From Nitrospira sp. CG24E (GTDB lineage: Bacteria; Nitrospirota; Nitrospiria; Nitrospirales; Nitrospiraceae), in contig NEWP02000008.1 of NCBI GenBank assembly GCA_002869895.2, positions 1-64,000 on the forward strand: a stretch of 64,000 nt of DNA. The letters run 5' to 3'. Positions within the stretch are counted from its first letter, which is position 1. Each line of letters opens with the position of its first letter. A program made the position numbers and the translations under genes. Of the stretch, positions 18,863 to 63,974 are shown in pieces. Under the pieces are notes generated by a model, which saw only the letters and a program-made list of their open reading frames with translations, ran no database searches and was not told where the DNA came from.

Positions 18863-20206
18863 ATGAGTGAGCACGACCTTGAAAAATTGCTAGGCGGCTT
18901 TACGGCAGATACGCTGACTTCGGAGGAGAAGCAGACGCTCTATGCCGCCGCCTTGCAAGACCAACAACTGTTCAATGTTCTAGCCGACGAGCAGGCCTTG
19001 AAAGAGTTGCTGTCCGATCCGGATGTGCGCCGAAAACTCCTCTCTGCTTTGGAGCAAGAGAGGACCTCAAGTCCCGGCAGTCCTCTATCATGGCTGGATT
19101 GGCTCCGCCGTCCGGCAGGTCTCGCCCTCGCCGGTGGTCTCTCGGCAGCTGCTCTCGCAGTCGTGTTGGGAGTCAGGATTTATGAGGACGGTCTGAGGCA
19201 AGCGGCGCAATCGGTCGCCACCGAAGAAGCAAACCCTCTGTCGAGGCCGACACCACAAACCAACGAGCCGCTGGCAAAGGCTAAAGAAAACGTAGCCCCA
19301 GCGACCGACCTTCCGAAGAAGGATATTGTGATCGATCATTCGGCCAAGCGAGAACAGCCCGTTCCGCCACAGCCTGAGGAGCAGCGCACATCCAATGCCC
19401 AGCACGACAGCTTATTGCAACAACGCGAGCAGGATGAAACCAGGAAGCCTGCCAACGAGACAATCGCTTCGGCCGGCAAGGCTGCAGGGGAAACGGCCTC
19501 ATTGGCAGATCAAAGACTCGCAGCAGGTTCTACCAGGCCAGCGGCCAGGCTGGAGTCTAAGCAGATAGAAACACCGACTGTCAGTGCCCGCGCACTCTTT
19601 TATGCCGGAGAGTCCCTTCGCCCCGACACCAGAAAGTCTCATGCCGAATCGGCACCCCAGGCAAGCCGACTGGAACGAAAATCTGAAGGGCTTTCGCAGC
19701 TAGGCAAGGCAGCCGGCACAGTCGCCCGACTCAGACCGCTGGGACTCCGCTACAGCTTCGTCGTTCGTGGAACAGATGGAAAGGAGCAAGAAGTAGACGG
19801 AGTATCCGCGTCGAGAAACATGCAACCGACTTTTCTCACCCTGGAGGCTAATCAAGAGGCCTATGTGCAGGTCTGGAAGACGGTTGGCTCCTCAATACCG
19901 AAACTGCAACTACCAGAAAAAGAAACCGGCGGGATCTCGCTAAAGCTGACCGTCGGTCAGCGACAACAGCTTGCACTACCAATTGAGAGTAGCCCCTTCA
20001 CCCTCACAGTCCGTCTTTCTCAAGTTCCGTTCGACTCAGTCGCAAGACAGAAATCCGGAATGTCAGACCGGTCCTCTCTCGATCAACTCCAAGAATCCAT
20101 CACCGAAGACAACCGCACCAACTCACGAGAACGAGCCACCTACATCGTCAGGCAAGATCCATCCACAACCGCTCAGATCACAGTCGATATTACCTTCGGA
20201 CAATAA
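18863..20206 (+). CDS. Membrane-anchored anti-sigma-like protein with DUF4384-like domain
   Basis: 447 aa. Residues 1-70 are a helical cytosolic part (MSEHDLEKLLGGFTADTLTSEEKQTL..., resembling anti-sigma N-termini but without a zinc motif). One transmembrane helix lies at ~88-107 (LALAGGLSAAALAVVLGV). A long Pro/Glu/Gln/Lys-rich low-complexity linker (~115-280) follows, then a folded C-terminal domain (~290-390) with YSFVVRGTDGKEQEVDG and EANQEAYVQVW, as in DUF4384. Position behind the ECF sigma gene supports a signalling pair sensing the periplasm. The function of the C-terminal domain is inferred by resemblance only. Confidence 0.65.
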   Translation: MSEHDLEKLLGGFTADTLTSEEKQTLYAAALQDQQLFNVLADEQALKELLSDPDVRRKLLSALEQERTSSPGSPLSWLDWLRRPAGLALAGGLSAAALAVVLGVRIYEDGLRQAAQSVATEEANPLSRPTPQTNEPLAKAKENVAPATDLPKKDIVIDHSAKREQPVPPQPEEQRTSNAQHDSLLQQREQDETRKPANETIASAGKAAGETASLADQRLAAGSTRPAARLESKQIETPTVSARALFYAGESLRPDTRKSHAESAPQASRLERKSEGLSQLGKAAGTVARLRPLGLRYSFVVRGTDGKEQEVDGVSASRNMQPTFLTLEANQEAYVQVWKTVGSSIPKLQLPEKETGGISLKLTVGQRQQLALPIESSPFTLTVRLSQVPFDSVARQKSGMSDRSSLDQLQESITEDNRTNSRERATYIVRQDPSTTAQITVDITFGQ

Positions 20207-56969: not shown

Positions 56970-57052
56970 TTCAGCCGTTTACCTTTTTCCATTCTCACCG
57001 TCTTACTCAGTGACAGGTTGATCCACTCTCTCACATTCAAGGAGGACGAATC

Positions 57053-57307
57053 ATGAAGAGCAGCATGTTGAAAGCACTAACGATTGCCGGCTTGGTTATG
57101 GCTGTGGCGGCCCCAGCCGTCATGCCGACTCTTGTCATGGCGCAGGCCGATATCCGTCAGGAAGATCGTCGGGCAGATCGGCAGCAGGATCGGCAAGCGG
57201 ATCGCCAGGCAGACAGGCAGCAAGACCGGCAAAATGATCGACAGATGGATCGGCACATGGACCGACAAGCGGACCATCGCGTTGATCATGGTGGGCACGG
57301 GCGGTAA
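57053..57307 (+). CDS. Small secreted Asp-Arg-Gln repeat protein
   Basis: 84 aa. Strong Shine-Dalgarno AAGGAGG. A Sec signal peptide (AGLVMAVAAPAV...TLVMA|QA) is followed by ~45 residues made of DRQ/DRR units (RADRQQDRQADRQADRQQDR type) ending in DHGGHGR. The mature part is highly charged, with no hydrophobic core, and is probably disordered; the final His/Gly/Asp residues could bind metal. A strong terminator follows 22 bp after the stop. Function unknown. Confidence 0.7.
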   Translation: MKSSMLKALTIAGLVMAVAAPAVMPTLVMAQADIRQEDRRADRQQDRQADRQADRQQDRQNDRQMDRHMDRQADHRVDHGGHGR

Positions 57308-57389: not shown

Positions 57390-57716
57390 TTACTGATGCC
57401 GCTTCACCTGACGGTCGTGCTTCTCTCTGGCAAGATGGCGTGAAGCGCGATTCTGCGCTGCGCCAATTCTAGCCCTTTCCTTTTTCGTCACAACGCCATC
57501 CGACTTTGCTTTGTCTTCTATTTTGTTGATATGTCTCTGCTGCCTGTTCAGCCGGTTGGCCTCTCGCTTGTTGAGCTGCCCACTGGCAACCCCCTGATCG
57601 ATTCGCTGTTCCTGATTCGCCTGTCGCTGGTCGATCGCGGGCGTTTCAGTCTCCGCATAGGCCACCCCGGTCATCAGCAACGTCATCGCAGTGACCGTCA
57701 ACAATACTCTTTTCAT
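57390..57716 (-). CDS. Small secreted basic helical protein
   Basis: 108 aa. Shine-Dalgarno AGGAGG before the ATG. Signal peptide MKRVLLTVTAMTLLMTGVAYA. The mature ~87 residues are rich in Arg/Asn/Gln/Lys and helical (QANQEQRIDQGVASGQLNKR, EDKAKSDGVVTKKERARIG), with a repeated helix-turn-helix-like pattern (GVASGQLNKREANR and GVVTKKERARIGAAQ) like two degenerate EF-hand-style units without acidic ligands. Seen as a conserved hypothetical type in environmental bacteria; function unknown. Confidence 0.68.
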   Translation of the reverse strand: MKRVLLTVTAMTLLMTGVAYAETETPAIDQRQANQEQRIDQGVASGQLNKREANRLNRQQRHINKIEDKAKSDGVVTKKERARIGAAQNRASRHLAREKHDRQVKRHQ

Positions 57717-57882: not shown

Positions 57883-58767
57883 TCAGTGGTCGCGCCCACC
57901 ATGGCCCCCACCACCATCGTCCCGCCCACCGCCTCCACCACCGCCGCTGCGATCATCCCGTCCCCCACGATCATCCCCGCGATCCTCCCGCCCACCACGA
58001 TCCGAGCCACCGCCCCGATCAGACCGATCCCCCCCACCAGATCCGCTACGATCCTGATCGCCGAATAGCTTATCGCCTCGCTCGCCCCTTGAAACCTTTT
58101 CCTGAATCGATTGCGTCGTCAGGCGTCCCTCTCGGAATTCTTGTCCATGCCGTTTCATTTCGCGCGCAAGGTCAGCCAATTCTGACGGGCGAAAGCCCTG
58201 TCGCATACCCTCCGCCACAATCGCCGCGCCGTCCTTCGAAGGGATATGCGCTTCCTTCATCACCGCCAAACTTTTGGCTCCCATCGCCAACGCATCTTCG
58301 CTCATCCGTTGCCCCTGATGCTGTCCGGCTCGGGCCAAATCGCGCACTTCATCGGCCGTGGCGCCACGACTGATCGCTTCGGCCATCGATTCCAAGGCTC
58401 GATGACTATTGCCCTGCCCTCGATCCGTGACTCCCTTCGCCGTCGACTCCTGCAGGAGCTCCTTGGCCGAATCGAAATGGGTTACCATCTGCCGCAGCAC
58501 CGCGTCGATCCGCTTCGGCTCGACACCCTTGGCCAATCCTTCCTTCACCTTGTTCGCCAACGACTCGATCGGAAAACCTTTCTCACCGGCCCTGATCACC
58601 TGTTCGAGCAGGGGATTCACGGCTTCTGCCGCATGCCCACGGGCTGCACGAAGCCGGTCGATCTCAGCCCGATCTTGATTCGAAAGGGACTCGGCAAACA
58701 CCGGCGCCGCCGTGAGGCACAGTGCCAGGCTGGCAAGCCGAACGAGTATGTGTATCGTGGGACGCAT
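57883..58767 (-). CDS. Secreted protein with Gly/Asp/Arg-rich C-terminus
   Basis: 294 aa. Sec signal peptide (LVRLASLALCLTAAPVFA). Residues ~30-225 are helical and structured (PLLEQVIRAGEKGFPIESLA, KVKEGLAKGVEPKRIDAVLR, repeated AxEGMRQGFRPSELADLARE-like units). Residues ~235-294 are a GDRSDRGGG/GGRDD low-complexity tail ending GHGGRDH. It is the last gene of a four-gene unit with an ECF sigma factor, anti-sigma protein and CBM48 lipoprotein, four bases after the lipoprotein stop. The tail may bind polysaccharide, metal or nucleic acid; not determinable. Confidence 0.65.
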   Translation of the reverse strand: MRPTIHILVRLASLALCLTAAPVFAESLSNQDRAEIDRLRAARGHAAEAVNPLLEQVIRAGEKGFPIESLANKVKEGLAKGVEPKRIDAVLRQMVTHFDSAKELLQESTAKGVTDRGQGNSHRALESMAEAISRGATADEVRDLARAGQHQGQRMSEDALAMGAKSLAVMKEAHIPSKDGAAIVAEGMRQGFRPSELADLAREMKRHGQEFREGRLTTQSIQEKVSRGERGDKLFGDQDRSGSGGGDRSDRGGGSDRGGREDRGDDRGGRDDRSGGGGGGGRDDGGGGHGGRDH

Positions 58768-58771
58768 CGTG

Positions 58772-59146
58772 TTATCGAACCACTACCACGCCATTCGTCA
58801 GTCCAAATCCATCCGTCACAAAGTCTTCCGCCAACGGCGGTGCCACCCACTCGTTGTCATTGACCAAATACATGAACGTGTGTTCTCCGGTCTGGAGTGG
58901 GGCTTCGGCGACCCACAACCCTCGCTCACCCGTTCGCTTCATGGGCATCGCTCCCTTGACCCAGCCGTTGAACGATCCCACCACACAGACCGTCTTGGCG
59001 ACGGGCGCCGACAGTGTAAACCTTATGCCACCGGTGACCTGCTTCGGCAACTCCAGCACGATCCTCCCGGCGCAGCCGCTCACCGCTGCGGTAAAGGCCA
59101 GGCCCAGCATTGCCCGTCGAAACGCTACCGCGATTCCGTTCACCAT
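58772..59146 (-). CDS. CBM48/AMPK-glycogen-binding-like lipoprotein
   Basis: 124 aa from ATG 59146. Signal and lipobox: MLGLAFTAAVSGC (Cys25). The rest is one E-set/AMPK-type glycogen-binding domain: IRFTLSAPVAKTVCVVGSFN GW with the conserved FNGW, then GLWVAEAPLQTGEHTFMYLV and FVTDGFGLTNGVVVV. It pairs with the anti-sigma protein upstream, which carries the same domain. Carbohydrate binding is the family norm but is not shown for such envelope proteins. Confidence 0.75.
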   Translation of the reverse strand: MVNGIAVAFRRAMLGLAFTAAVSGCAGRIVLELPKQVTGGIRFTLSAPVAKTVCVVGSFNGWVKGAMPMKRTGERGLWVAEAPLQTGEHTFMYLVNDNEWVAPPLAEDFVTDGFGLTNGVVVVR

Positions 59147-59199
59147 GGCCGGAAGAGTACCGGACAACCTCTTCCGTTGCAAGGGAACTGATCTTAGGT

Positions 59200-59886
59200 T
59201 TAGATACTGACATCGAGCACCGCATTCTGCGATCCGAATCCATCGCCGGCGCCATCGGCTGCAAAAGGATCGGCGATCCATTGTGTGCCGTCGATCACAA
59301 ACATGTACTGATACCGGCCAGGCTTGAGGACGATCGTCGCAGTCCACAGGCCGCCTTCGGACGGTTCAAGTTTCGTCTGGCTTGGATTCCAGCCGTTGAA
59401 GTCGCCGGCTACGGAAACAGACCGAGCGCCTGGTTGAAGCAGGACGAGTCGCACAAAGACCTTGGGCTCTTGTCCTGGCGCGAACGATGCGGTCTGCGCC
59501 TGACTCCCAGCCACCGGGACCGGCACCTCCACGATCCGTTCCGGCGCGAAGCGCAGAAAGCCGACAACTGCGACAACTATCACGCAGGCGGTCGCCAGCG
59601 CTCCGGTCAGATTCCATTCCAACGTGCGCGGCACAGTAAACAGTTCCGCCAACCGGCTGAAGAACCCTTTCGGCTGCGCATCAAGTTTGGCCAGCACTCG
59701 AGCGGTAAATTGGCTCGACGGAGCAATCCTGGGAAGCCGTCCTGCCTCTGCCACCACCATTTCAAGGTTCAACCACTGGCGGCGCAATCGGGGATCGGCA
59801 TCGACGGTTTCAAGAAACTGCACTCGTTCTTCGGGCGCCAAGTCCTGATCGAGAAACCGTTGGATCAAGAGATCCTGCTCATCCAT
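59200..59886 (-). CDS. Anti-sigma factor fused to a CBM48-like domain
   Basis: 228 aa; ribosome site GAGGTGA before ATG 59886. Residues 1-75 are a helical anti-sigma-like cytosolic part (DLLIQRFLDQDLAPEERVQF ... RLRRQWLNLE). A transmembrane helix lies at ~93-112, then a short linker and, at ~145-228, an AMPK/CBM48-type domain outside (VFVRLVLLQPGARSVSVAGD, FNGW, LWTATIVLKPGRYQYMFVID). It begins three bases after the ECF sigma gene stop, so the pair is co-expressed. The exported glycan-binding-like domain is an obvious candidate sensor. Confidence 0.8.
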   Translation of the reverse strand: MDEQDLLIQRFLDQDLAPEERVQFLETVDADPRLRRQWLNLEMVVAEAGRLPRIAPSSQFTARVLAKLDAQPKGFFSRLAELFTVPRTLEWNLTGALATACVIVVAVVGFLRFAPERIVEVPVPVAGSQAQTASFAPGQEPKVFVRLVLLQPGARSVSVAGDFNGWNPSQTKLEPSEGGLWTATIVLKPGRYQYMFVIDGTQWIADPFAADGAGDGFGSQNAVLDVSI

Positions 59887-59889
59887 AGA

Positions 59890-60492
59890 TCACCTCGCGA
59901 CAGGAGGCCGACTGTCATTGAACTCCGCCAACTCGCGACTCAATTGCACCCGCCCTTTGTACACCCGCATCTTCAAGGTATCTCCGCTTACCCCAAGAAC
60001 CTCTTCCATCTCTTCGTAACTGAGTCCTTCGACGTGCTTCATGATAAATGCTTCCCGGTAGAGAGGCGGCAACCGCTGGATCGCCCGGTCCAGATGGTCG
60101 GCCACTTGCTGCTGCGAGAGAATCCGTTCCGGCGTTCTGGCTTCGACCACATGCTCATCCGCCACTGTCTCCACATCGAGGTCGAGCTGCTCTGGACGTT
60201 TGGCACGAAGCCAATCTTTACACTTGTTCGCTGCAATCCGATAGAGCCAGGTCGAAAACTTCGCCTCCGCCCGAAAGGTCGGCAGGGCCTTGAATGCCGC
60301 AATGAAGGCCTCCTGCGCAAGATCTTCCGCATCGGTCCGATTCCCCACCATCCGATAGGCCAAACTATTCACGACCGTGGCATAGCGGTCGACGAGCTGC
60401 CCAAAGGCTTCGTGGTCCTGTTTGAGGCTGCGGGCGATGAGCCTGGCTTCATCGACCCACACATGTGGCTCAAGCGGCATACCCACCATCAT
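59890..60492 (-). CDS. ECF-type RNA polymerase sigma factor
   Basis: 200 aa. Region 2 at ~27-100: FGQLVDRYATVVNSLAYRMV, GNRTDAEDLAQEAFIAAFKA, FSTWLYRIAANKCKDWLR. Region 4 at ~135-190: LDRAIQRLPPLYREAFIMKH, EGLSYEEMEEVLGVSGDTLK, RVYKGRVQLSRELAE. Full-length ECF sigma factor. First gene of a leftward operon with its anti-sigma partner; probably autoregulated, as usual for ECF/anti-sigma pairs. A start at ATG 60480 is also possible. Confidence 0.9.
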   Translation of the reverse strand: MMVGMPLEPHVWVDEARLIARSLKQDHEAFGQLVDRYATVVNSLAYRMVGNRTDAEDLAQEAFIAAFKALPTFRAEAKFSTWLYRIAANKCKDWLRAKRPEQLDLDVETVADEHVVEARTPERILSQQQVADHLDRAIQRLPPLYREAFIMKHVEGLSYEEMEEVLGVSGDTLKMRVYKGRVQLSRELAEFNDSRPPVAR

Positions 60493-60717
60493 ATATCGAC
60501 TAGGCCGCTCAGCAAGCTTCTACTGATTAAGACGAGCGGCCGGCCGATTCGTAAACAGACAACTTCTGTGACCCGTGAGACAGATGAAATTTCTAAAACC
60601 GCAATGTTTTCAACGACGAGGGGTCTATTCGAGTCGTGCCATTCTACATTGTGCACAAGGCTGGCAGAAGGGGCGAGAAAAGCGAGTGTCTCTAGGGAAA
60701 TGTTAGGTATCTACTTA
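60493..60717. other. Upstream region of the ECF sigma operon
   Basis: 225 bp without an open frame of coding character. It holds the promoter region of the sigma operon. No clear -35/-10 pair could be assigned by eye. Confidence 0.3.
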
Positions 60718-60841
60718 GCAGGATGCTGAAAAAGTCCGCCAGCGGCGTTCTCGCGTCGCTCAGAGGCTCAACGTACCGAAGCGTACGCCTCGCCTCTTCG
60801 CTCGCTGCGGCCTTGCTGGACGGCCTTTTTGAGCATCCTGC
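60718..60841 (+). repeat. Dispersed inverted-repeat element A, copy 6 (best-preserved)
   Basis: GCAGGATGCTGAAAAAGTCC ... GGCCTTTTTGAGCATCCTGC. Terminal inverted repeats of 16 bp with one mismatch. Inner features: GCGGCGTTCTCGCGTCGCTC, ACGTACCGAAGCGTACG hairpin, GCTGCGGCCTTGCTGGACGG. Good reference for the family. Confidence 0.85.
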
Positions 60842-60916
60842 AGCGTTGTTGCCATCGGCGCAGTGTACAAGATTCCAATAGTATATTGTGCGTAAACTGA
60901 GTTTTTCCGCAGCCTG

Positions 60917-61810
60917 TTAGAAGCGATAGCTGACACCGGTAGACAACCCATAGTCCGGCGCTCCATTGGACAGCCCAACCGTGACCCCGCCGTTGAACCG
61001 CCACTCTGAGGAGGCCCTATAATTCATGCCAAAAAAGACATCTCGGATATTTTGATTTCCCGAGATAAGCGACCGGTATTCTTCGAAGTAGACGCTGCCG
61101 AACAGGTCCTTCGTGAAGTAGTAGCCCCCTCCGACGTCATACCACCACTGGTTCCTGAGATTCCGGCCTTCCGGTCGGCCGATGACGTTGAAGCCTCCAT
61201 CCAGAAATAGAATCCAGTTGTTTCCGACGAGCTTGGACAATTCCGCTCCGACTCCCTGGTCCATCTTGCCAGTCCCAAGCCCTTGCGACTCATCCGCTGT
61301 CGGCAGCTTCAAGCGGCCAGTGACCGCGATGAGGGGGGTCCAGCCCTTCTCCTCAACGATATAGTAGCGCCCCCTGAGAATGATGTCGCCTAGACCTGAA
61401 TTCGTAACCTTCTGGCCCTGAGCGCCACCTGTCACCAGCCCTTGGCATTCCGGCCTGTCTTCAGGCTTTCCCTGACCGGAATTGCTAAAACAGCTCTCGG
61501 GCAGAGTTTGTGTCGGCTGCCCGCCGACCAGTGTAGCCCCACCGGTTGTCGTCACAGTGACAAACGGAATCACCAGGGCGACATCGCCGTCTTTAAAGAA
61601 CCGGCGAATCGAGAGTGGCGCGTAGAAAAATGTGCTCGTCGTACTCGTCCCATAGTTTCCGCTCGAATAACTTGGGTTGAAGCCCACTTGCCAATTTCGA
61701 TCAGGAGTCGGTTGAGGTCCTAGATCCGTTTTCTCCGCGGCCAACCCCGCTGTGGCAATTCCCATGAGACAGACCACGATCCCGACAACCCTGCGACCCC
61801 ACTCGCCCAT
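60917..61810 (-). CDS. Outer-membrane beta-barrel protein (phenol-degradation meta-pathway/porin-like)
   Basis: 297 aa; Shine-Dalgarno GAAGGGAG before the ATG. Signal peptide (VVGIVVCLMGIATAGLAA). The mature protein alternates amphipathic strands and turns (WQVGFNPSYSSGNYGTSTTS, GDIILRGRYYIVEEKGW, TPLIAVTGRLKLPTADESQG, YDVGGGYYFTKDLFGSVYFE) and ends YGLSTGVSYRF with the C-terminal Phe needed by the Bam machinery. KLPTADE with GLGTG is typical of the MetA-pathway-like transporter group. An internal Cys pair lies in a loop. Confidence 0.8.
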   Translation of the reverse strand: MGEWGRRVVGIVVCLMGIATAGLAAEKTDLGPQPTPDRNWQVGFNPSYSSGNYGTSTTSTFFYAPLSIRRFFKDGDVALVIPFVTVTTTGGATLVGGQPTQTLPESCFSNSGQGKPEDRPECQGLVTGGAQGQKVTNSGLGDIILRGRYYIVEEKGWTPLIAVTGRLKLPTADESQGLGTGKMDQGVGAELSKLVGNNWILFLDGGFNVIGRPEGRNLRNQWWYDVGGGYYFTKDLFGSVYFEEYRSLISGNQNIRDVFFGMNYRASSEWRFNGGVTVGLSNGAPDYGLSTGVSYRF

Positions 61811-62021: not shown

Positions 62022-62528
62022 TCAGTCGCGTCTCTCTCGTTCATGCCTCTCCGACCTATCGGGTCTCTCATGCCGTTCCGGATAATCGGGCCGATCCATC
62101 TGAACTGCTCGGGCATTATCGCGCCCATCCCGCCCATGCTCACCTGCCACACGGTCGGCGCGATCAAGGCCTCGAGATTCTCCTTCGATATGGACACGAC
62201 GATCCTCTCGCTGGTCTTCCTGCCGCATGTCACCATCACGACCCGATCCACTATGTAAAGAACCGGGTCCACTGTTTGCCGAACCATGGCCGCTATTGAC
62301 CGACCCTGGTCCACTGTTCTCGCTCCCGCCACGACCGCCCCGGTCATCGGTCCGACTGCTACCCCGATCGCTACCATCTTCGAGCCGGACACCGCTCGCC
62401 GTTCTCGGCGACGACTTGAGGATATCCACCTGCCCGTTCTGGATCGGAGAAGATGTCTGCGCCCACGCCGGAGTTGCCATGATGGCCAGAACACCGAGAA
62501 CCAGGATTGACCTTGTCGAATGTATCAT
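62022..62528 (-). CDS. Secreted Ser/Gly/Asp/Arg/His-rich protein
   Basis: 168 aa from ATG 62528 with AAAGGG upstream. Signal peptide (SILVLGVLAIMATPAWA|QT). The mature protein is low complexity: GSDRGSSRTDDRGGRGG, NSGPGSVNSGHGSANSGPGS repeats, then an acidic/basic RED/RER-rich tail ending RSERHERERRD. Probably disordered in the periplasm or outside. The competing frame on the same strand lacks a signal peptide and is rejected. It lies 18 bp after the DUF5666 lipoprotein stop, so co-transcribed with it. Confidence 0.6.
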   Translation of the reverse strand: MIHSTRSILVLGVLAIMATPAWAQTSSPIQNGQVDILKSSPRTASGVRLEDGSDRGSSRTDDRGGRGGSENSGPGSVNSGHGSANSGPGSLHSGSGRDGDMRQEDQREDRRVHIEGESRGLDRADRVAGEHGRDGRDNARAVQMDRPDYPERHERPDRSERHERERRD

Positions 62529-62546
62529 GATGGACTTCCCTTTCAA

Positions 62547-63974
62547 TTAGTCTTCCAGCTCCGCTTCGCGCCACGTCACGACCGTCCCGTTCAGCCTTCC
62601 CTTCACCTTGACCAAGGTGCCGACCGTCACAGCATTGAAGAAACCTGCACGGCCAATCAGCTGACCGTTGAGACCTTCGAAGTTGTCATTACTAATTCCC
62701 GACGTGTCGACCGCCACACCGAGAATCGTCAGAAACGGATCACCGAACGGTTGCTGAACCGGTCCTTGGAGATCCACATCGCTGTCTGGCGACCGCAGAA
62801 TAATGCGGGTTGCTATGACAGAAGTGGGACCACTCACACGGCCACGTACCCGGACGTGATTGCTATCCAGATCATTCAGAGTGATGGTATTTCCACCGTC
62901 TTTCAGCTCTGTCTGGCTGTTCACGGTAATGGTCAAACCGGGCAGCCCTGCAAGCGTCAACGTGTTGCCATTGATCGTTGCATTTCCTTCCAGCCGCACA
63001 CTCTCATGGAACTTCACATGCTTCGCCGTCAAGATTCCGTTCGCCAATCGACCCTCGGCAGACAACTTCGTCCCTACGACGATCTCATCGATCGTGCCGC
63101 CTCGGAATTCCGTGTTTGCCGTCGTCTGCACATGGGTGCTGCCGATGAAGAAATCGCCAAGCCCGTCGACTCGCGTCACAAATCCTTCCACTTCAAACTC
63201 GTCTGCTTGCTTCACTCCCTGATTCTCCGGCTCGACCTTGGTCGCAGTGAGGGTGGTCGTTCCGGAATTGAAGGTTGTTCCTTTCACTTCCACGAAGAGG
63301 TCATTCCAGTTGTTGCCGCTTGGACTCGGCATGTCGCCAATGATGGCACCGGCATAGTTCACCGTGAGGTTGCCGATTTGAAATGTAGTCGTAGCAGCGA
63401 CGTGGCCGCTGATGAATCCACGCACTTTGAGCGTCACCCCAGCTATCTTTTTTTCAATGAATGTTGCCTGGATTACACCATTGGGACGGATATGGCCGTT
63501 CACTTCCACGTTGTCACCGACCACGGACGTAACGTTATTGTCGAAGATCGTCGTGTTGTCGACCAAGACCGTCTGACCCATCACCACCAGACTCAATCCA
63601 TCGGCGGCGATCGACTGCACCAAACCCTCTACTGCATCCCTTTGCTGGACAGAATCGGCGGTATGTTCATTGCCATTGAACGAGCCGGTCACAAAGACGG
63701 TCATGCCCTCTTTGAGACCGCAGTGATTGGCCGGGCTGATATCGCACCGATTCGGTGTACCGTCATCTCGCCGCACTTCCACACCATTCGCCTCGAACTT
63801 CTTGCCGTTTACAAACACACTGCCAAAACCGGTAATAGTGCCGGATGATGCGGCTGATCCGCTGGCACTGCCTGTCGCCGGACTGGACGATCCCCCGCCG
63901 CTCCCGCAGCCTCCCAGCAATCCCACCAAGCCAACTGCACCGAAGAAATTGAATATGATTGATGACCGTCTCAT
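62547..63974 (-). CDS. DUF5666-repeat lipoprotein
   Basis: 475 aa; ribosome site GGAGGGG before ATG 63974. Lipobox LGGC (Cys23) followed by a Gly/Ser run. The rest is a series of ~65-80-residue beta-barrel (OB-like) DUF5666 units: GTITGFGSVFVNGKKFEANG, GLKEGMTVFVTGSF, AVEGLVQSIAADGLSLVVMG, VLVDNTTIFDN, FEVEGFVTRVDGLGDFFIGS, VRVRGRVSGPTSVIATRIIL. DUF5666 proteins are envelope lipoproteins of unknown function found in many environmental bacteria. It is first in a unit with the secreted low-complexity protein. Confidence 0.82.
   Translation of the reverse strand: MRRSSIIFNFFGAVGLVGLLGGCGSGGGSSSPATGSASGSAASSGTITGFGSVFVNGKKFEANGVEVRRDDGTPNRCDISPANHCGLKEGMTVFVTGSFNGNEHTADSVQQRDAVEGLVQSIAADGLSLVVMGQTVLVDNTTIFDNNVTSVVGDNVEVNGHIRPNGVIQATFIEKKIAGVTLKVRGFISGHVAATTTFQIGNLTVNYAGAIIGDMPSPSGNNWNDLFVEVKGTTFNSGTTTLTATKVEPENQGVKQADEFEVEGFVTRVDGLGDFFIGSTHVQTTANTEFRGGTIDEIVVGTKLSAEGRLANGILTAKHVKFHESVRLEGNATINGNTLTLAGLPGLTITVNSQTELKDGGNTITLNDLDSNHVRVRGRVSGPTSVIATRIILRSPDSDVDLQGPVQQPFGDPFLTILGVAVDTSGISNDNFEGLNGQLIGRAGFFNAVTVGTLVKVKGRLNGTVVTWREAELED

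Follow-up and report, generated by a model that had tools for sequence, protein, structure and literature searches.

Four adjacent genes in the window, by which we mean the whole 64,000-nucleotide stretch of Nitrospira sp. CG24E DNA that was analyzed, encode an ECF sigma factor, an anti-sigma factor, a predicted lipoprotein and a secreted protein, and the anti-sigma factor and the lipoprotein carry the same CBM48/AMPK-like domain. We propose, with a probability of roughly one half, that these genes form an ECF sigma/anti-sigma system in which the matched domains relay a signal across the cell envelope. The proposal is based on gene content, conservation, a promoter motif, domain identity and residue conservation.

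The four genes are all located on the minus strand, with gaps of 3 to 53 bp (Table 1). The source genome (3.45 Mb in 99 contigs, 98% complete) belongs to the Nitrospiraceae, and the closest named record of the anti-sigma factor among the matches listed was from Nitrospiraceae bacterium WB-IL-04, with 94% identity. The sigma protein contains both region 2 and region 4 according to Pfam, which identifies it as an ECF sigma factor. The unit is larger than first described, adding a conserved sigma promoter and a wider gene cluster. The arrangement of the second promoter copy and the Asp/Arg/Gln-repeat gene was similar in several relatives. No Pfam family above cut-off was obtained for the small secreted Asp/Arg/Gln/Gly-rich proteins at 57053-57307, 57390-57716 and 62022-62546. 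An inverted-repeat-like element of about 120 bp is located between the sigma and barrel genes (60723-60845). It was found in at least 40 places in the same genome (40 of 190 candidates scored), and is therefore a dispersed repeat that we excluded as a part of the system. An origin from a mobile element was also rejected, since the anti-sigma factor had no match in phage or plasmid collections.

Table 1. Features of the sigma/anti-sigma locus, with positions in the window.
Feature	Position	Strand	Basis
ECF sigma factor, 200 aa	59890-60492	-	Pfam Sigma70_r2 (E = 2.6e-22), Sigma70_r4_2 (E = 2e-14)
Predicted autoregulatory sigma promoter, GTTTAC-N16-CGTCTTA	60528-60556	-	Motif upstream of sigma
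Anti-sigma factor, 228 aa, periplasmic CBM48/AMPK-like domain	59200-59886	-	Pfam, NCBIfam
Anti-sigma transmembrane segment, about residues 93-113	59548-59610	-	Hydropathy window
Anti-sigma CBM48/AMPK-like domain, about residues 145-228	59203-59454	-	Pfam; phmmer to PDB chains
Partner, predicted lipoprotein with CBM48/AMPK-like domain, 124 aa	58772-59146	-	Pfam; lipobox VSGC
Secreted protein of 294 aa, helical repeats followed by a disordered Gly/Arg/Asp tail	57883-58767	-	Relatives and AlphaFold2 model
Predicted outer-membrane beta-barrel (Phenol_MetA_deg), recurrent neighbour	60917-61810	-	Pfam (E = 1.2e-9)
Secreted Arg/Gly/Ser-rich protein, frequent neighbour	62022-62546	-	Seen around family loci
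DUF5666 lipoprotein	62547-63974	-	Pfam
Second copy of predicted sigma promoter	56977-57005	+	Motif match
Small secreted Asp/Arg/Gln-repeat protein, 84 aa	57053-57307	+	48 bp 3' of second promoter copy
Small secreted basic protein, frequent neighbour	57390-57716	-	Seen around family loci

Pfam scores above cut-off confirmed the initial annotation of a CBM48/AMPK-like domain in both proteins. For the anti-sigma factor, AMPK1_CBM matched residues 153-227 (E = 1.4e-10; 41.7 bits versus a cut-off of 26.8) and CBM_48 matched residues 151-209 (E = 2.6e-9), and a phmmer search with the domain recovered PDB chain 5ot1 at E = 7e-8 and PDB chain 4y0g at E = 2.8e-5. The lipoprotein matched AMPK1_CBM with 32.9 bits against the same cut-off of 26.8 (E = 7.8e-8). 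Apart from these two proteins, no AMPK1_CBM match was found in the 3.45 Mb genome. The N-terminus of the anti-sigma factor matched no Pfam family; the protein matched NCBIfam antisigma with E = 5.4e-7, which is under the curated cut-off, and one relative (L236) displayed zf-HC2 at 6.8e-8. The 124 aa of the lipoprotein are counted from an internal ATG, the listed open reading frame starting upstream at a GTG, and its VSGC lipobox was identified by eye.

Within the family, the anti-sigma factor was matched at E<=1e-5 in 82 of 175 genomes. In 60 of these, the source genome included, the match was full-length; in three it was in pieces (G077, G103 and G120) and in the rest it covered the CBM domain only. 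The family set of 48 loci consisted of the window together with 47 of the remaining 59 full-length matches, the 12 cases without wide stretches being left out. The genes for the sigma factor, anti-sigma factor, partner and secreted protein were all present in 48 of 48 loci. In every locus the anti-sigma gene adjoins the sigma gene and encodes a single hydrophobic, transmembrane segment, the best window of which starts at residue 93-97. The partners have an N-terminal hydrophobic stretch and a cysteine; a simple lipobox pattern, never followed by aspartate, was matched in 31 of 48, and in the 17 that miss the pattern the cysteine still follows the hydrophobic start. The upstream neighbours include a beta-barrel gene in nearly all loci and the secreted Arg-rich protein and DUF5666 lipoprotein in most, some stretches ending short of these neighbour genes.

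The pairing of anti-sigma factor and lipoprotein noted in the initial annotation is conserved well beyond the family. A search of 84,980 species genomes identified at least 324 stretches encoding relatives, and the best 80 were taken as named loci, comprising 49 near loci (largely from the same genomes as the family set) and 31 distant loci. Using models built in this analysis, a partner CBM gene was called in 70 of these best 80 of at least 324 loci, which corresponds to 49 of 49 near and 21 of 31 distant loci. The phyla with the pair among the best 80 were Nitrospirota, Acidobacteriota, Gemmatimonadota, Balneolota and Rhodothermota, and its recurrence in these five named phyla suggests that envelope state is sensed in a manner not described before. 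The partner is located 3' of the anti-sigma gene in most loci and before the sigma gene in ten distant loci, nine of which are of Nitrospirota type by title and one of which is from an unclassified bacterium (L241). Among the loci without a partner, three (L225, L232 and L235) have the sigma gene at or near the start of a cut contig, where a partner would lie upstream. Five are from Atribacterota, of which L233 and L247 are located on contigs about 4.5 kb long. Elusimicrobiota accounts for another, and in the last (L239) no sigma gene was called. The Atribacterota, Elusimicrobiota and L239 loci indicate that the partner is not always present.

In 11 of 13 whole genomes reached through selected loci, Pfam revealed two AMPK1_CBM matches on the same strand, separated by about 0.2 to 1.3 kb, and in seven of the 13 the adjacent pair represented the only two matches; since the anti-sigma factor was the criterion for selecting these genomes, only the second domain counts as an independent observation. 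The two exceptions were Salinivenus, in which the partner domain falls under Pfam detection (CBM_48 at E = 0.0078, below both Pfam cut-offs), and an Atribacterota genome, which gave a single match. Relatives of the Phenol_MetA_deg-type barrel were found in 55 of the best 80 of at least 324 loci, including 8 of the 31 distant ones, and barrel-like genes follow the module in L226, L228 and L237, one scoring above the Pfam cut-off and two weakly.

In five loci the partner domain forms the C-terminal end of a predicted barrel protein of 366-419 aa. These are Fodinibius, Aliifodinibius, Salinivenus and two Gemmatimonadota (L243, L244, L246, L248 and L249), representing Balneolota, Rhodothermota and Gemmatimonadota. 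Of three barrel-fused partners analyzed with Pfam, one gave weak barrel matches, with OMP_b-brl scoring under its cut-off at E = 0.0048. An AlphaFold2 model of the Fodinibius protein (L243), computed from five sequences and of low confidence (pLDDT 51), displayed long strands throughout, and a Foldseek search of the PDB with this low-confidence model gave 18 matches at E<=0.001, all of them to outer-membrane barrels. Judging from such predictions, the partner is likely to be located at the outer membrane, apparently attached as a lipoprotein in Nitrospirota and Acidobacteriota and fused to a barrel in Balneolota, Rhodothermota and Gemmatimonadota.

In a tree of the domains (94 columns, 84 rows, 22 open forks), the anti-sigma and partner domains stay apart within lineages, with six label changes needed per group. 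A recent tandem duplication of the two domains was therefore rejected. One locus titled uncultured Nitrosospira (L220) groups with Nitrospira in this tree and is probably a mislabelled assembly.

The initial annotation had mentioned a secreted Gly/Arg-rich protein as the next gene. Such a gene is present, outside 58772-60492, but its product is a conserved helical protein that has a disordered tail. The AlphaFold2 model of the 294-aa protein has a mean pLDDT of 84, with 192 residues at 90 or higher, and is nearly all helical. No Pfam family above cut-off and no solved structure at E<=0.001 matched the protein or its model, respectively. In addition to the 48 family loci, relatives were identified in 76 of the best 80 of at least 324 loci; as the other four stop at the end of a contig, the helical protein is likely to be a component of the system, and is probably a periplasmic modulator.

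The search for a promoter motif, suggested in the initial annotation as a route to the sigma regulon, identified GTTTAC-N16/17-CGTC upstream of the sigma gene in 48 of 48 family loci. The motif was exact with N16 in 40 loci, exact with N17 in two and present with one or two mismatches in six, two mismatches alone being unremarkable for a stretch of this length. The extended pattern GTTTAC-N16-CGTCTWA gave 146 matches in 59 of 63 genomes with the anti-sigma factor or pieces of it and 16 matches in 16 of 112 genomes without it (75 genomes in all), as compared to 9 matches in all 175 genomes for the reversed-pattern control. The surroundings were taken for chosen sites, within clusters and at recurring distal places, among the matches listed. 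This provided 142 rows, corresponding to 135 distinct sites with a downstream open reading frame after removal of overlaps, and two more sites without one.

The sigma gene itself was the target at 40 of the 135 sites. A small lipoprotein was found at 34 sites (32 genomes) and DUF5666 at seven, and these two groups overlap in part in the kind of site they represent. The picking of reading frames sometimes chose DUF5666 over a preceding small lipoprotein; it also selected the wrong frame for the 84-aa gene of the window. The small lipoprotein is not a misread overlap with PilZ, since these are different genes at different loci. Asp/Arg/Gln-repeat secreted proteins, a loose grouping by low-complexity similarity, followed at 19 sites (15 genomes). 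Other targets, with families named by Pfam of cluster representatives, were an OMP_b-brl protein (seven sites), a YNCE-like propeller (three sites), YhdP/AsmA (two sites) and a TraF_2/PorV-like protein (two sites). The remaining sites represented further small clusters and 13 singles, several of which are probably chance matches or wrong reading frames. In the source genome the motif precedes the sigma gene and the gene for the 84-aa secreted protein. A further copy, which has one mismatch, is located at 64513-64541 of the contig, past the end of the window, upstream of a PilZ gene and a DUF5666 lipoprotein. A looser motif added three sites on another contig (C2), giving 5 sites in all versus 1 for the reversed control; two of the three are located ahead of genes for a response regulator and for a GT28-type glycosyltransferase. 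Thus, as predicted from sequence, the motif marks mostly envelope genes, and these target families are consistent with the control of envelope genes proposed in the initial annotation. A near-identical GTTTAC...CGTCTAA site recurs in four genomes in which no anti-sigma factor was found (G011, G019, G021 and G034; loci L151-L154), perhaps belonging to another ECF system with a similar promoter.

The conservation of glucan-contact residues was assessed relative to AMPK beta1, in which we take the contacts to be W100, K126, W133, L146, T148 and N150. In the family set, the equivalents of W100, W133 and N150 show no variation in either protein (48 of 48 anti-sigma domains, 48 of 48 partners). Both binding-surface tryptophans are thus kept in both domains, and the genes are paired in relatives; the initial annotation had named the loss of both features as the outcome that would speak against it. 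At the K126 position, all 48 anti-sigma domains have Met, as do 44 of the 48 partners (Ile or Leu in four). The L146 position is occupied by Phe in all family domains, and the T148 position by Ala or Ser in the anti-sigma factor and mostly by Gln in the partner. Across the best 80 of at least 324 loci, the equivalent of W133 is present in 79 of 79 anti-sigma and 70 of 71 partner domains, that of N150 in 78 of 79 and 70 of 71, and that of K126 in 0 of 79 and 2 of 71, while the position of T148 is variable. One of the 71 rows (L239) was labelled partner by rule and groups with the anti-sigma domains, to which it probably belongs, hence the 71 rows for 70 partners.

Seven cytoplasmic single-domain relatives, representing those with a CBM reading frame given among 13 lone-CBM stretches (L080-L092), retain the two tryptophans, lysine, threonine and asparagine in 7 of 7 cases, the leucine not being kept. 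That all seven lie beside glycogen genes was rejected: this holds for one (L092, with GlgC-like and MalQ neighbours), three adjoin a nucleotidyl transferase, and three had none of these genes among the scanned neighbours. Two further lone-CBM stretches adjoin GlgC-like or alpha-amylase/CBM48 genes, and some of the cytoplasmic proteins in L080-L092 are located beside TetR-like genes.

In the mechanism that we favour, the anti-sigma factor would hold the sigma factor at the inner membrane, with its CBM48/AMPK-fold domain projecting into the periplasm, and the second protein with the matching domain would sit at the outer membrane, either as a lipoprotein or as the periplasmic end of a barrel. 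The two domains may touch or share a ligand, and this contact would control cleavage of the anti-sigma factor. Perturbation of the outer membrane or of the partner would then free the sigma factor, which would transcribe its own operon along with outer-membrane, lipoprotein and small secreted protein genes. For this relay we infer the outer-membrane location, the contact between the domains, the proteolysis and the sign of the regulation. The initial annotation had suggested that the domains sense a polysaccharide, normally an alpha-glucan for such domains, or each other across the periplasm. Mutual sensing appears to be the best fit to the sequences; the sensing of alpha-glucans was not supported in the form proposed, given that among the best 80 of at least 324 loci the lysine is absent from every one of the 79 anti-sigma domains and from 69 of the 71 partner domains and that the threonine is variable. 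A glucan-operon reading was likewise rejected, as the scanned recurring target families include no glucan-metabolism gene (of the single-site targets, the scan covered two in the source genome), and MdoG, which acts on periplasmic glucans, had no match in that genome.

The main rival to a matched-domain relay that reports the state of the outer membrane is a glycan sensor, in which both domains bind a periplasmic poly- or oligosaccharide (capsule, a part of LPS or alpha-glucan) and occupancy alters the stability of the anti-sigma factor, a scheme that has been proposed for the CBM-bearing RsgI proteins of cellulolytic clostridia. The invariant aromatic residues could indicate that both domains bind a sugar, and the W100, W133 and N150 equivalents of the family set, the near invariance of W133 and N150 across the named loci and the glycosyltransferase and response regulator behind two loose-motif sites all agree with this. 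However, FNxW is shared by all of these cytoplasmic proteins and by AMPK and may thus be conserved for structural reasons, and the loose motif has 5 sites against 1 for its control. The lysine and threonine lost or varied here are kept in all seven cytoplasmic relatives, though only one of these lies beside glycogen-type genes, and the recurring targets argue against glucan metabolism. An aromatic platform that is kept while the polar contacts are changed points to a different ligand or to a protein surface. We consider a glycan sensor possible but doubtful, and a hybrid of the two readings is possible. In the rpoE-rseA-rseB operon, the order is sigma factor, anti-sigma factor and periplasmic partner. 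The resemblance to the present layout raises the alternative that the partner alone shields the anti-sigma factor from site-1 cleavage until displaced by misassembled outer-membrane components, the domain match stemming from an ancient duplication. Envelope targets are a further feature that the two systems have in common. The domain tree, without a recent duplication, is compatible with this, and an RseP homologue is present in the source genome; it says little, since the search matched 14 of 14 control genomes (9 above cut-off). Unlike that system, the proteins of the window have no RseA or RseB family among their Pfam matches (E 0.1), and the fusion to a barrel, seen in three phyla, sets the partner apart from RseB, which makes such a guard unlikely. 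Finally, the lipoprotein encoded in the sigma operon might be a structural protein of the envelope, with the anti-sigma factor sensing something else, as the Atribacterota loci with an anti-sigma domain and no partner would allow; that the pairing persists across five phyla through changes in gene order and fusion renders this very improbable.

Cell-surface signalling is the closest in logic to the relay that we favour. According to PMC11637429, FoxR and PupR use a C-terminal STN-like domain to bind the STN domain that the outer-membrane transducer carries, and for Fox the STN-STN binding is described to protect the anti-sigma factor from proteolysis. FecI-FecR-FecA and FoxI-FoxR-FoxA share with the present system an ECF sigma factor, an anti-sigma factor with one transmembrane segment, an outer-membrane partner (predicted here) and the same fold on both sides, but employ STN domains instead of a CBM48/AMPK-like domain and a lipoprotein or small-barrel partner. 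For the scanned proteins of the window and for three barrel partners, Pfam gave no match to STN, plug or TonB-receptor domains. RsgI of cellulolytic clostridia is, according to PMC6056542, a CBM-bearing anti-sigma factor, with SigI/RsgI being autoregulated. The extracellular carbohydrate-binding-type domain and the autoregulation (predicted here) are similar, whereas the present sigma factor has regions 2 and 4, the latter lacking in SigI, and the present system has envelope-gene targets and a second CBM protein. The AMPK beta/CBM48 glycogen-binding domains share the fold family, both tryptophans and the asparagine; the present domains differ in being exported and in having the lysine and threonine contacts replaced. 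Names such as glycogen-binding domain may thus mislead when given to exported bacterial proteins.

No prior description of an anti-sigma factor with a CBM48/AMPK domain was found in the part of the open-access literature searched, and a term search of PMC7406223 gave no match. We tentatively suggest, at somewhat less than even odds, that the genes represent an undescribed class of trans-envelope sigma signalling in at least five phyla, in which a glycogen-binding fold serves as a docking pair between the outer and inner membranes and the helical protein is a new periplasmic third component. Such a system would offer a second, apparently unrelated solution to the problem solved by cell-surface signalling, and it provides the nitrite-oxidising Nitrospira, including N. 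defluvii and N. moscoviensis, whose records contain the module, with a concrete candidate for envelope sensing, with a predicted promoter and targets. Elsewhere in the window, at 18863-20206 on the plus strand, a second protein appeared anti-sigma-like by eye and has a long C-terminal region.
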